Source of the DNA: an archaeon
GTDB lineage: Archaea > Thermoproteota > Thermoprotei_A > Marsarchaeales > Marsarchaeaceae
DNA length: 64,000 bases
Assembly: GCA_021817005.1 (NCBI GenBank)
Contig: JAKAWJ010000006.1
Coordinates: 1-64,000, forward strand
Reading direction: 5' to 3'
Made by a program: the position numbers and the translations under genes. This document shows, in pieces, positions 42,660-56,546 of the stretch. Under the pieces are notes generated by a model that had not been told where the DNA came from, searched no databases, and saw nothing but the letters and a program-made list of their open reading frames with translations. The number at the start of each line of letters is the position of its first letter. Positions within the stretch are counted from its first letter, which is position 1.

Positions 42660-44672
<2,013 letters not shown>

Positions 44673-47817: not shown

Positions 47818-49785
47818 TTACGGACTGAGTTGGAAACCAAAGGTAGTGGCGTAACTACTCAGGAGTTCTTTTACGCGAGGGTCTGATCTGACATCCGCGA
47901 ATAATGGATCCCATCGAATAAGTGAAATGTTAGTCGTGTGTTCCTTGGCTGACCTGAGCATGAGTTCGAAGAACTTTTCCTTTTCACCCATCGCCAGATG
48001 TATTGTGCCACTGCTAAAAGCCATGTTCTGCATTTTGTCTAGTTCGGCTATCATCTCTCGAGCAGTTTTCTGATCTCCGGTGAGCGCGGCCAAAACCCCT
48101 CTACAGAAAAGCGTCTCGGATAAGCCCGGTCCCAGATGCTCGAGTTCTCTGGTCTCCTTCTCGGCATCCTCGTACTGCCCCTTACCCATATAATACATGG
48201 AAAGAGCCGCATGCGTGCGATACGGCTCCAAAGACATTGTCCTCTTCCAGTGCTCCAAGGCTTTTTTCTCATCCCCGGCGTAGTAATAGACTACGCCAAG
48301 CCGGGTCACGCATTCCGGATTAAGGGGGTCCAAGGCATACGCCTTCTCGAGTGCGGCCTCCGCCTCCTGAATATTGCCCGCACTGGTGAGCCAAACCCCC
48401 AGCATCAGGTATCCGTCGGAATAGTTCGGGTCGAGTTCAATCGCCCTCCTGATCTCCCGGACGCTTTCCCGCTCGTCGGCCATAAACATGACCAGCGCCA
48501 GAGCTGCATGGGACACGGCCAGATCTGGGTCGAGCTGAATGGCCCTTAGCGCCGCGAGCCTGCCTTCTTCGATAGCTTTGGCAAACGGTACATACCCATG
48601 CAACGCGAGGTAAGCGTAGGACACGCAAATCCCCGCGTGCGCGGCTGCGTACCGTGGGTCTCTCTGGGTCGCATTCAAAAACATCTGGAGCGCCTCCCTG
48701 TTGGGCTCTTCTTCAAGCCTGTGCAGAAGATGTACACCCTGCAGATAATAGGTGTAAGCTTCCATGTCCTCTGTGGGTTTCTTGGCGATCATGTTTCTTT
48801 CCCTTGCCGACAGCTTGACCCGCAGCTCCGAAACCACTCTCTCAGTTATTTCGTCCTGCACCGCGAAGATGTCGTCCAGTGTTCCGTCGTAGTGATCGGA
48901 CCACACGTGGGCTTCGGTTGCAGTGTCGATAAGCTGAACCGTAACCCTCACCCTGTTGCCCGCTTTCCTGACGCTGCCTTCAACCAAGAATCCAACCTTC
49001 AGCTCCTGGGCAACCTGCGATGCCTTCTTTTTCTCCCCCTTATAGGTCATGATAGATGTCCGGGCAATGACTTCAAGGCCGCTCACATGTGCGAGCCTGT
49101 CGATGAGCTCTTCTGTAATCCCGTCGGCAAAGTATTCGTCGTCGCGGCTCGGACTCATGTTGACGAACGGGAGCACTGCCACCCGGTTACTCACCCGCCT
49201 CGTCACACCTTCAGATTGCGCACCCACGATATGACTATCATCCTCCCAAGGCATCACGATTTTGTAAACGTCGACCTGCGAACTCACACCCTTAAGCTGG
49301 ATTGGCTCCAGCTTGACCATTCGCAAACGTACTTTGTTTCTGACCTGGTCGTATACCTGGCCGGATACGCACACGCCACCCGGCTGGCTAAGTGGCTGAA
49401 TACGGGATGCGATATTCACAGTATCTCCGAGTATATCGCCCTCAGAGTCCACCACGTCTCCCAGGTGTACGCCTATCCTCAGAACCATCCTCCACTCCTC
49501 CTTCGATGACGCGTTGTAGTCGTTGAGGAGCCGTTGAATCTCGACCGCGCAGTTCACCGCGTCCAGGGCACTTTCGAATTCAACGAGAAACGAGTCCCCG
49601 ATCGTCTTGACTTCTCTCCCCTGGAACCTGATGAAAACCGGGCGTAGCAGCCTGTTATGCCTGTCCAAGACGCGCAGAGACTGGGCTTCGTCCAGCTGCG
49701 TCAGGGCGGTATAGCCCACTATGTCCGTGAACATCACAGCCGCTAGCCTCCTGCTCTGCGACACCGCTACGACCGGTTTCTGCAC
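47818..49785 (-). CDS. Class III adenylate/guanylate cyclase with FlgO-like and TPR domains
   Basis: A 655-aa cytoplasmic signalling protein. The cyclase domain (about residues 10-175) has metal Asp21 in FTDIVGYT, the Lys60/Asp64 pair in VKTIGDSF and the NIASR transition-state motif, so it looks active. A second domain (about 195-335) begins RVAVLPFVNMSP and resembles the FlgO/TolB-N-like module common in bacterial cyclase-TPR proteins. From about 345 to 640 there are TPR helical repeats, such as AEAALEKAYALDPLNPE. The start is GTG 49785. Its base composition is more GC-rich than its neighbours and the architecture is mainly bacterial, which suggests transfer. Confidence 0.9.
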   Translation of the reverse strand: MQKPVVAVSQSRRLAAVMFTDIVGYTALTQLDEAQSLRVLDRHNRLLRPVFIRFQGREVKTIGDSFLVEFESALDAVNCAVEIQRLLNDYNASSKEEWRMVLRIGVHLGDVVDSEGDILGDTVNIASRIQPLSQPGGVCVSGQVYDQVRNKVRLRMVKLEPIQLKGVSSQVDVYKIVMPWEDDSHIVGAQSEGVTRRVSNRVAVLPFVNMSPSRDDEYFADGITEELIDRLAHVSGLEVIARTSIMTYKGEKKKASQVAQELKVGFLVEGSVRKAGNRVRVTVQLIDTATEAHVWSDHYDGTLDDIFAVQDEITERVVSELRVKLSARERNMIAKKPTEDMEAYTYYLQGVHLLHRLEEEPNREALQMFLNATQRDPRYAAAHAGICVSYAYLALHGYVPFAKAIEEGRLAALRAIQLDPDLAVSHAALALVMFMADERESVREIRRAIELDPNYSDGYLMLGVWLTSAGNIQEAEAALEKAYALDPLNPECVTRLGVVYYYAGDEKKALEHWKRTMSLEPYRTHAALSMYYMGKGQYEDAEKETRELEHLGPGLSETLFCRGVLAALTGDQKTAREMIAELDKMQNMAFSSGTIHLAMGEKEKFFELMLRSAKEHTTNISLIRWDPLFADVRSDPRVKELLSSYATTFGFQLSP

Positions 49786-53473: not shown

Positions 53474-54118
53474 CTAAGGTCCTTCTGGCTTTCCTGCAAC
53501 ATGCGGTGACTGGCTTCGAATTACGTAGAGAACTAATGTTAGGACTATCACGATTGCGACAGCGATTTCTATGTAAGTGAACGCGCCATAGAGGTTCTGG
53601 GAAAGCGCGGTCACCGATTGGGAGAACCTTTCACCAAGGTATATGAGGACAATATCCCAGACCAGGACTCCGCCCAAGGACCAAGCGAGGAATTTGACCG
53701 GGTCCATCTTGGCGAAACCGGCTGGGAATGCGACGAGAGTTCTCAATAGAGGAACAAATCTGGCGAATAATACGACAAGCGCTCCGTGGCTGGCAAACCA
53801 TTTCTCTGTGGTTTCAAGCATCCGTTCGTCCAGCCGAATGTATTTCCCGTATCTGAGGATTACAGGCTTCCCAAACCAGAAACCCAGTCCGTAATCCAAG
53901 AGTGTTCCTAGCAGGCTACCGGCGGTAGCAGCCAAAACCGCAGGCCAGAAGGACATCTGACCGCTGAATATGAGATAACCGGTTAACGGAAGGACTACTT
54001 CGCTTGGAACAGGCAGCGTAGCGCTCTCTAAGAACATCAGAGAAAAGACCCCCCCATACCCAGCCTTAGAAAGGAGAGATGCCGCGAAATTGAACACTAG
54101 TTTGAAGAGAGAACTCAC
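53474..54118 (-). CDS. DedA/VTT-family membrane protein
   Basis: A 214-aa integral membrane protein. It carries the DedA pattern FLESATLPVPSEVVLPLTG near the N-terminus, a GSLLGTLLDYGLGFWFGKP loop and FARFVPLLRTLVAFPAG with the conserved Arg. Relatives are lipid scramblases or flippases that recycle lipid carriers such as undecaprenyl phosphate. The start lies next to a 32-bp direct repeat. It is on the same strand as, and 108 bases after, the cytochrome b-Rieske gene. Confidence 0.92.
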   Translation of the reverse strand: MSSLFKLVFNFAASLLSKAGYGGVFSLMFLESATLPVPSEVVLPLTGYLIFSGQMSFWPAVLAATAGSLLGTLLDYGLGFWFGKPVILRYGKYIRLDERMLETTEKWFASHGALVVLFARFVPLLRTLVAFPAGFAKMDPVKFLAWSLGGVLVWDIVLIYLGERFSQSVTALSQNLYGAFTYIEIAVAIVIVLTLVLYVIRSQSPHVAGKPEGP

Positions 54119-54225: not shown

Positions 54226-55770
54226 CTAAGAAACATATATGTTTCCTGTAGCTTGGTCGAGGGTCAGTCCGATCTTGTGCAGTGGAATGTAGGCCGGCCC
54301 CCTAATTGCGCTTCCGTTTGATGGGTCAAATAACGAACCGTGACAAGGACAGTAAATGACCCGATCAGGAGAATAGTACTGCACTTCGCACCCCGCATGG
54401 GTACATATTGCCGAGTAAGCATCAAGGGTTCCATCGGATAATCTAATGAGTATTCCTGGTCCTCCAGAAGGATTCGAGAAATAAGTCGCGGAGTTGGGCA
54501 GCAGATTCTTTATGTTTGCGATTGGTTTTGGTCCTGCAGCGGTAGTTGAAGTTGTACCGCCGGATGGTGGCGCCCGGGGCCTGTTCACCATGAAGTCCAG
54601 CCCCAGAGCCATAAGGAGTATGGCTCCAGTGAGGATGCTCGACTTTTTGATAAACTGACGCCTGGCAACTTCAACTTGAGGAGGGGTATAAGTGCCAAGA
54701 ACTGGGCATGCGTCCGATAAGCACAATGCGCCTTGTTTTCGGGAGCACCTCTCGGCGCTACTTCTCACAAACCGGCTGCCGCAGGTCTTCTGCACGGCGG
54801 AGAAGGGGATGAGCACTGAGGCATTGGGATTCGCGAGCGATCTTCTTGACTGTAGACCAGTGTATTTCGTAAAGGCCTCCTCCGATAGGGAGGCAGTCAG
54901 CTTCGAGACCACAGATGCTTTTGCTTTCACTGCGTTGGGCTTCCAGACGCTTGAATCATAATGCACAGAAAAAAACTGAGGTGAAAGCGTCCCTCGGGTA
55001 ATCGCCCTGATAAGGGGACGATTCTGGGGCAAAGCAGAGAAATAGATGTGCCCGGCTACCAGCCCAAGCACCAAGACTGAGGCGTAGATATGCGCAACAA
55101 GAAATCCCGTAGCCACATAGGCCGGCAAGCCTTGAACTGGTAGCAGTCTTAATGGGTCCCAGAGGTACACCCCAGTTACAGCAAGAACGCCAGTAGCTAG
55201 GCCAAGGGACGCATGGTAAATTTTCTTGTAGGGGTCATACTTACCAGTGCGCTCCTGTTCTAGCAAGCCCCTTGCAAACCTTCCGACTCGCTGCATCATA
55301 AGTCTTGCATCCCTTGCCGTAAAGACGATTAGCCGAAGTGACCGACGGGAGTACAACTCATGAAAGGTATGGATCGCCAGCAGTAAAATCAGGCCAAAAG
55401 AGAAGTATTCGTGCCAGAGCAGCGAAAACACGCTAAAGTGAAAAACAGCCAGATTTGGAAAAAGATATATTTCAAACCCCGTAGCTGTCAGGAAGAGGAA
55501 GATTCCCGCGATGAGCCAGTGGACCAGCCTCTGGGTTCTGTCGTAAGCCTGAACAGGGGCGTTTGTCTCGAGACTCTGGTACTCATGGCGTATGTGTACA
55601 GAGCCCTGCTTTCTGCCTCTCAGAACGTAGTGAATGATATAGGCTGCAATAAAACCTGCCAGTGCGATTTCGGTGAAGGGTATTCTCAAACCAACAGCCA
55701 AGCTTGCCGGTGTAGCGTCAGGCGAATGCGATAAAGGCTTGTGGTACAAGCGTCGATAAAGGAGCGGCAC
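54226..55770 (-). CDS. Cytochrome b561-like / Rieske iron-sulfur fusion protein
   Basis: A 514-aa membrane protein. Residues about 30-260 form a di-heme cytochrome b domain of the b561/FdhI type, with helix His residues in RLVHWLIAG, LLWHEYF, IHTFHELY, IYHASLG and VAHIYAS/AGHIYFS. A roughly 100-residue polar linker with five Cys follows. Then come a twin-arginine-like RRQFIKK with a hydrophobic helix (about 370-395) and a C-terminal Rieske domain. The cluster ligands are Cys456, His458, Cys474 and His477. Cys461 and Cys476 can form the disulfide of high-potential bc-type Rieske proteins. The start is GTG 55770. This order in one chain is unusual. It probably moves electrons from quinol. Confidence 0.85.
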   Translation of the reverse strand: MPLLYRRLYHKPLSHSPDATPASLAVGLRIPFTEIALAGFIAAYIIHYVLRGRKQGSVHIRHEYQSLETNAPVQAYDRTQRLVHWLIAGIFLFLTATGFEIYLFPNLAVFHFSVFSLLWHEYFSFGLILLLAIHTFHELYSRRSLRLIVFTARDARLMMQRVGRFARGLLEQERTGKYDPYKKIYHASLGLATGVLAVTGVYLWDPLRLLPVQGLPAYVATGFLVAHIYASVLVLGLVAGHIYFSALPQNRPLIRAITRGTLSPQFFSVHYDSSVWKPNAVKAKASVVSKLTASLSEEAFTKYTGLQSRRSLANPNASVLIPFSAVQKTCGSRFVRSSAERCSRKQGALCLSDACPVLGTYTPPQVEVARRQFIKKSSILTGAILLMALGLDFMVNRPRAPPSGGTTSTTAAGPKPIANIKNLLPNSATYFSNPSGGPGILIRLSDGTLDAYSAICTHAGCEVQYYSPDRVIYCPCHGSLFDPSNGSAIRGPAYIPLHKIGLTLDQATGNIYVS

Positions 55771-55919
55771 CCTCAGTTCTTTGGCTCATGCCAAAAGAGC
55801 GAGCGCGCGTCCCACAGAGGAAGCCTAATTTGCAGAAATGCGTGGATTTCAAGGAGCCTCGATGGTGCGGATTAATATCATAGTGCGTGCCTACCAGCGC
55901 AACTCCTGACCACTCTCTC

Positions 55920-56546
55920 ATGGTGATACAAATGGATCCCACTGAAATAGCGGCCTCTGCAGAGCTCGGAACTCGGACGAGAATACTGCGTTACATTCAT
56001 GATCACCCGGGCTCGCATCTGAGGGCCCTGGCACGCGAGCTGAAGCTGGGAATGGGCAACCTGCAGTATCACGTCCACATCTTGGAAGAGTCTGGACTTC
56101 TGAGCTCATCGAGGGAGGGTCTCAGAAAGTTCTTCTACACGCGTGAGACGTTACGGGAATCCTCCCATTCCCTGATCATCTCCCTTTCTCAGGAAACACC
56201 CAGAGAAATCTTGACCTTTCTCACCCTGAAGGGCAGTTCCACCCAGCACGAAATATGCCTGAAAGTGGGGCGTAAACAGTCAACAGTCTCGTGGCACCTG
56301 AACAGGTTGCGAAAAGCCCGTTTAATCGAGGTATCCGATGGGCAGGGAGGAGGTTTTCGGCCAGCTCAATACAGAGTTAACGAAAAAGTCAGAAGACATC
56401 TCGCGGTGTTCATGGAGAGTTACCACCCAAGCATTTGGACAAGATGGTCGGAGAGAATGAACGAAATTGTGGAGTCAATATCTGACAGCTTTGGAACACA
56501 ATCCGATTCCTTCATCCAAGACGACCCTAGCGGTGTCTTTCATTGA
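55920..56546 (+). CDS. Transcription regulator with two winged-helix domains
   Basis: A 208-aa DNA-binding protein. The first wHTH (about residues 10-75) contains RILRYIHDHPGSHLRALARE followed by LGMGNLQYHVHILEESGL. The second (about 95-165) contains GSSTQHEICLKVGRKQSTVS followed by WHLNRLRKARLIEV. Double winged-helix regulators of this kind are common in Euryarchaeota and Thermoplasmatota. A TATA-like GATTAATATC at 55869-55878 predicts a start near ATG 55920. It diverges from the cytochrome b-Rieske gene and overlaps the next membrane-protein gene, so it may control one or both. Confidence 0.85.
   Translation: MVIQMDPTEIAASAELGTRTRILRYIHDHPGSHLRALARELKLGMGNLQYHVHILEESGLLSSSREGLRKFFYTRETLRESSHSLIISLSQETPREILTFLTLKGSSTQHEICLKVGRKQSTVSWHLNRLRKARLIEVSDGQGGGFRPAQYRVNEKVRRHLAVFMESYHPSIWTRWSERMNEIVESISDSFGTQSDSFIQDDPSGVFH

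Follow-up and report, generated by a model that had tools for sequence, protein, structure and literature searches.

A single open reading frame in the window (the whole 64,000-nucleotide stretch of archaeal DNA that was analysed) appears to join a membrane-bound cytochrome b to a Rieske protein, which raises the question of whether such a chain is real and, if so, whether it acts as a miniature bc1 complex or as something simpler. The earlier note had read it as one polypeptide in which an FdhI/b561-type di-heme domain is joined to a bc-type Rieske domain, with a cytochrome b family other than that of bc1, a Cys-bearing linker and an internal RRQFIKK-plus-helix segment. Each of these points was confirmed: an uninterrupted minus-strand ORF with a GTG start encodes 514 amino acids, Pfam gave matches to PF01292 and PF00355 and none to the cytochrome b families PF00033 or PF13631, the linker holds four cysteines, and a helix is predicted at residues 366–395. 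From the N-terminus the elements are an extra helix (TM0), the di-heme b561 domain, the Cys linker, RRQFIKK with the last helix (TM5), a tether and the Rieske head (Table 1). The AF2 model had a mean pLDDT of 70, moderate in the membrane part and high in the Rieske head, and a second model, of a Metallosphaera-type fusion (see below), showed the identical order of elements and the same Rieske matches. The fusion is a real, rare variant of a known design, and a simple relay between the quinone pool and an outside partner is probably a better description of it than a miniature bc1 complex.

Table 1. Features of the fusion gene and of the genes flanking it (window coordinates).
Feature	Position	Strand	Basis
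b561-Rieske fusion gene	54226..55770	-	ORF; PF01292 + PF00355; 89% identical same-genus orthologue, dN/dS 0.17
Extra N-terminal helix TM0, ~residues 32–54, ending RGRK	55609..55677	-	Hydropathy; AF2 helix 21–54
FdhI/b561-type four-helix di-heme domain, ~residues 76–259	54994..55545	-	Pfam, FdnI alignment, Foldseek, invariance
Cys linker, residues 286–366, predicted cytoplasmic	54673..54915	-	Conserved with G001, dN/dS 0.12
RRQFIKK + helix TM5, residues 370–395, then NRPR	54586..54663	-	RR invariance; AF2 helix 366–395
Flexible Pro/Gly/Thr-rich tether, ~residues 397–416	54523..54582	-	pLDDT <50 at 397–411
Extracytoplasmic Rieske [2Fe-2S] head (predicted), residues 417–514	54229..54522	-	Pfam, Foldseek, pLDDT mostly 89–97 from 421
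DedA/VTT-domain gene, next downstream	53474..54118	-	Pfam PF09335; same order in G001
Two-winged-HTH regulator gene, divergent	55887..56546	+	Pfam HTH families; conserved in G001

A frameshift or misassembly joining two genes can be dismissed as having practically no likelihood, because the ORF runs through without a break in six genomes from two genera, and several of these genomes are single contigs. In the separately assembled same-genus genome G001 (JAJYZJ010000053.1, isolate FK5.bin12) the fusion ORF is intact, 89% identical, and has the same neighbours in the same order, and the fusions of G019, G039, G055 and G304, of 399–447 aa and devoid of the Cys linker, are intact as well; the separate genes in close relatives by which the earlier note would have recognised an artefact were thus not what was found. 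The dN/dS values between the window and G001 (b561 0.10, Cys linker 0.12, helix plus Rieske 0.185, overall 0.17) indicate purifying selection across the linker and the domains.

The last four genomes belong to one Sulfolobaceae genus, which we take to be the acid-loving Metallosphaera, in the same class as the window genome; the fusion was absent from two other genomes of this genus (G044 and G413). It occurred in only six genomes, in two genera, among the 229 genomes of the class that were searched, and in the same two genera in an evenly drawn sample of 398 genomes of the phylum. No fusion was detected in 400 genomes of the bacterial phylum of G422 (probably Chloroflexota), in plasmids (80% coverage) or in viral contigs, and none was described in the literature searched; an earlier mention may exist. 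In a first Rieske tree, which contained two unrelated long-branch rows, the fusions were ungrouped; after removal of these rows the six fusion Rieske domains formed one clade (95/91). The b561 part likewise lies closer to its counterparts in the other fusions than to the free-standing b561 proteins included in the comparison, and the fusion therefore probably arose once, with later transfer or loss. Among the Rieske domains sampled, the closest relatives were the C-terminal heads of DoxD fusions from the G422 phylum, in which b561 domains are also found fused to, or adjoining, sulfite-oxidase-type domains.

The membrane domain matched PF01292 at residues 76–259 with an E-value of 1.3e-17 (64.5 bits against a cut-off of 30.1). 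With phmmer, at a weak E-value, its residues H84, H120, H227 and H241 aligned to H18, H57, H155 and H169 of FdnI (cytochrome b556 of E. coli formate dehydrogenase-N, PDB 1kqf), which are established heme ligands; from this alignment H84/H241 are predicted to bind the cytoplasmic heme and H120/H227 the outer heme. All four histidines are invariant in the five fusions covered by the alignment, as are H134 and H186, both missing from FdnI. Foldseek comparison of the AF2 model with FdnI (1kqf_C) gave a TM score of 0.72 by target length, and GKYDPYKK occupies the position of the quinone-site motif of FdnI, the GKY being common to both. An FdnI-like fold suggests a quinone site on the cytoplasmic side of the membrane. 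The fusion differs from FdnI by its invariant extra histidines, by the remainder of the GKYDPYKK motif, by the fused Rieske domain, by TM0 (a region hydrophobic in all five aligned fusions), for which FdnI has no counterpart, and by the absence of FdhA/FdhB genes among the neighbours examined (DedA, HTH, Usp, P450 and peptidase genes). The equivalog model of the formate dehydrogenase gamma subunit, TIGR01583, scored 30 bits, under its cut-off of 115.85.

The Rieske head matched PF00355 at residues 437–494 (E-value 6.4e-10, 39.3 bits against a cut-off of 20.3). Its two boxes, C456-T-H458-x-G-C461 and C474-P-C476-H477-G-S479, are of the bc type and contain all the predicted cluster ligands (C456, H458, C474 and H477), and the disulfide cysteines named in the earlier note are present as the pair C461/C476. 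Foldseek with the AF2 model returned Rieske proteins of b6f and of arsenite oxidase (AioB). The second-sphere residues are Ser479 and Phe481 in the window fusion, and Ala at the Ser position and Phe at the Tyr position in the Metallosphaera-type fusions; the two conventional Rieske proteins of the window genome retain Ser and Tyr (HCPCHGSHY and HCSCHGSTY). In yeast, loss of the Ser lowers the Rieske potential by about 130 mV and loss of the Tyr by about 65 mV (PMC12954380). Ala in place of Ser should lower the potential in the Metallosphaera-type fusions. Because a natural Ser/Phe Rieske protein nevertheless measures +335 mV (PMC12954380), the potential is not readable from the sequence.

Loop charges, counted by the positive-inside rule, place the loops 51–85, 142–183 and 241–376 inside the cell, and therefore RR inside and the Rieske head outside; with the extra N-terminal helix, the N-terminus would lie outside. 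The RR pair, invariant in the five aligned fusions, directly precedes the last helix, and the cofactor domain follows it, which is the layout of proteins inserted by both Sec and Tat. The generic TAT model reached 10.3 bits, short of its cut-off of 16.7. Positive charges (NRPR) follow TM5, the hydrophobicity of which, on a rough scale, is not below that of the other helices. Of the six genomes with the fusion, five have TatC (G001, G019, G039, G055 and G304); it was not found in the sixth, that of the window, a gap which may reflect the 84.6% completeness of this genome. The Cys linker (C330, C342, C350 and C355) is confined to the genus of the window, being missing in the other four fusions, and had no match in Pfam or PDB. 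Its dN/dS shows that it is constrained like a domain, and it may bind a metal or act as a redox switch.

The closest published architecture is that of the Sco3746-type proteins described by Tooke et al. (2017; PMC5449189): predicted b-heme helices and an RR motif are followed by one further helix and then by a molybdopterin head, and dual Sec/Tat insertion was shown experimentally in the same study. The fusion shares with them the predicted b-heme helices, the RR motif, the last helix followed by positive charges and a cofactor head predicted to be exported, all in one chain. It differs by carrying a Rieske instead of a molybdopterin head, by the additional helix at its N-terminus (six helices in all, with the N-terminus predicted outside), by the four-Cys linker in the genus of the window, and by a last helix whose hydrophobicity, on the rough scale mentioned, is no lower than that of the others. 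Read by architecture rather than by shown descent, the fusion is a Rieske-headed variant of the Sco3746-type plan, and with a published relative it is less isolated than it appears in the earlier note. The actinobacterial three-helix Rieske protein QcrA likewise has an internal Tat motif before its last helix and dual Sec/Tat insertion (PMC5449189); it is, in contrast, a bc1 complex subunit, and its chain lacks heme-binding helices.

The DoxD-Rieske fusions, sampled among the 400 genomes of the G422 phylum, also have an internal RR-helix, a tether and a C-terminal Rieske head on a quinone-type membrane domain, which is DoxD/DoxX there and b561 in the window fusion. A strong Rieske match was obtained in 49 of these 400 genomes, and most of those read were DoxD-Rieske fusions; the ones with an internal RR-helix (L068, L069, L073–L089, L091–L093 and L097–L101) are frequent there and look like further candidates for dual Sec/Tat insertion. 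Side by side, the window fusion, the Sco3746-type proteins and the DoxD-Rieske fusions suggest a modular rule: a quinone-type membrane domain, an RR helix, a tether and an exported redox head. With the bc1/b6f complexes and the SoxN/SoxL and SoxG/SoxF-type pairs, finally, the window fusion shares the bc-type Rieske domain with its disulfide cysteines; it differs from them in its cytochrome b family, in being a single chain and in having no PEWY motif.

No partner gene adjoins the fusion among the neighbours examined. The gene is not part of a respiratory cluster and has DedA and universal stress protein genes nearby; the DedA/VTT gene is possibly co-transcribed with it, and the divergent HTH gene is a candidate regulator. 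Three of the four genomes with a Metallosphaera-type fusion encode beside it a protein that begins with a signal-like stretch, contains a membrane helix and ends in an HTH (L036 7280–8134, L038 8194–9048 and L053 3375–4199), a candidate membrane-bound regulator. The fusion is the sole PF01292 protein found in its genome. A search of this genome for a normal bc1 complex and terminal oxidases, as the earlier note had proposed, yielded two cytochrome b genes, each adjoining its own Rieske gene, and a heme-copper oxidase. One pair lies on contig C26 with a COX1/COX3-type oxidase, COX2 and two cupredoxins, and the other on C35 with an ethylbenzene-dehydrogenase-type (CbsA-like) gene. Given these two pairs, the fusion is an addition to the bc1-like complexes and not a replacement of them. 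The C26 genes (G000:C26 86521–92545, L116) form a SoxM-like row of a COX1/COX3 fusion, two cupredoxins, COX2, Rieske and cytochrome b. A link to Fox iron oxidation was considered and rejected; the window genome and G001 have one COX1 each and therefore no FoxA-like second oxidase was found in either.

We propose, with middling confidence, that this one chain relays electrons across the membrane, linked to quinone and carrying its Rieske head on a tether. Five helices would be inserted by Sec, and the last helix with the folded Rieske head by Tat, so that the head would face outside. Electrons would be exchanged with the quinone pool at an FdnI-like site close to the inner heme, would traverse the membrane by way of both hemes and would be handed by the mobile head to an extracytoplasmic partner such as a cupredoxin beside the oxidase; that two cupredoxin genes adjoin the oxidase of this genome is in agreement with this. 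As the Rieske clusters of respiratory chains are usually stronger oxidants than quinols, flow from quinol to Rieske is the more likely direction. Of the minimal quinol-oxidising module put forward in the earlier note, the oxidation of quinol is retained as the likelier direction, and the role of a stand-in for bc1 is made less likely by the two conventional pairs, the heme-copper oxidase and the missing PEWY. Several points count against the relay: GKYDPYKK departs from the GKYNAGQK of the FdnI quinone site, no partner gene adjoins the fusion, TatC was not found in the window genome, the model of the membrane part is of moderate confidence, electrons moving outward from a quinol site on the cytoplasmic side would run down the proton-motive force, and the Ala of the Metallosphaera-type fusions should lower the Rieske potential.

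The last point would fit flow in the opposite sense, from an external donor through Rieske, outer heme and inner heme to quinone on the cytoplasmic side, with energy conserved as in FdnGHI. FdnI, with which the b561 fold and heme ligands agree, belongs to an enzyme running in that direction, and the closest sampled Rieske relatives are the heads of DoxD fusions, DoxD being part of thiosulfate:quinone oxidoreductase. We nonetheless consider such a quinone reductase unlikely, since respiratory Rieske clusters usually lie above quinones in potential and no dehydrogenase subunit adjoins the fusion.

A minimal Q-cycle, which takes the idea of the earlier note furthest, with bifurcated oxidation of quinol on the outer side to Rieske and outer heme and reduction of quinone by the inner heme, would draw on what the chain does possess, the cofactor set of the bc1 core and a mobile Rieske head on a flexible tether. 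It is improbable, because the fusion has neither the bc1 cytochrome b fold (PF00033) nor any PEWY-like Qo motif, and the genome already holds its two conventional pairs. We think equally little of a role in redox housekeeping (metal, superoxide or protein-sulfur), in which quinol electrons would drive reductive repair or detoxification outside the cell and not respiration. The sulfite-oxidase-type domains fused to or beside the sampled bacterial b561 domains, and the position of the gene away from the respiratory clusters and near the DedA and stress protein genes, would suit it, but the fusion has no catalytic domain and a Rieske domain is an electron carrier.

Returning to the relay, FdnI-type scaffolds work with Mo/FeS enzymes in the systems solved or described, and the fusion means that a Rieske head can sit on such a scaffold. 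It is conceivable, although doubtful, that an FdnI-type di-heme domain with a mobile Rieske constitutes, next to bc1/b6f and alternative complex III, a third type of respiratory quinol:acceptor oxidoreductase; this type would export quinol electrons to a carrier outside the cell and, in the genus of the window, would have a cytoplasmic four-Cys centre. The Metallosphaera version, from a probably cultured host, makes the design testable, and with it the question of whether a Rieske protein can take quinol electrons without the bc1 cytochrome b.

Two further loci of the window were recorded. The katG gene (catalase-peroxidase) seems to be in pieces at 42922–44672 (+), as a decayed or frameshifted gene: 43851–44672 (+) matches only KatG residues ~462–728, and the short upstream ORF 42922–43581 resembles, by eye, the N-terminal part of KatG. 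The gene at 47818–49785 (-) encodes a protein in which TPR repeats are joined to a class III adenylate/guanylate cyclase domain, and it has an orthologue in G001.
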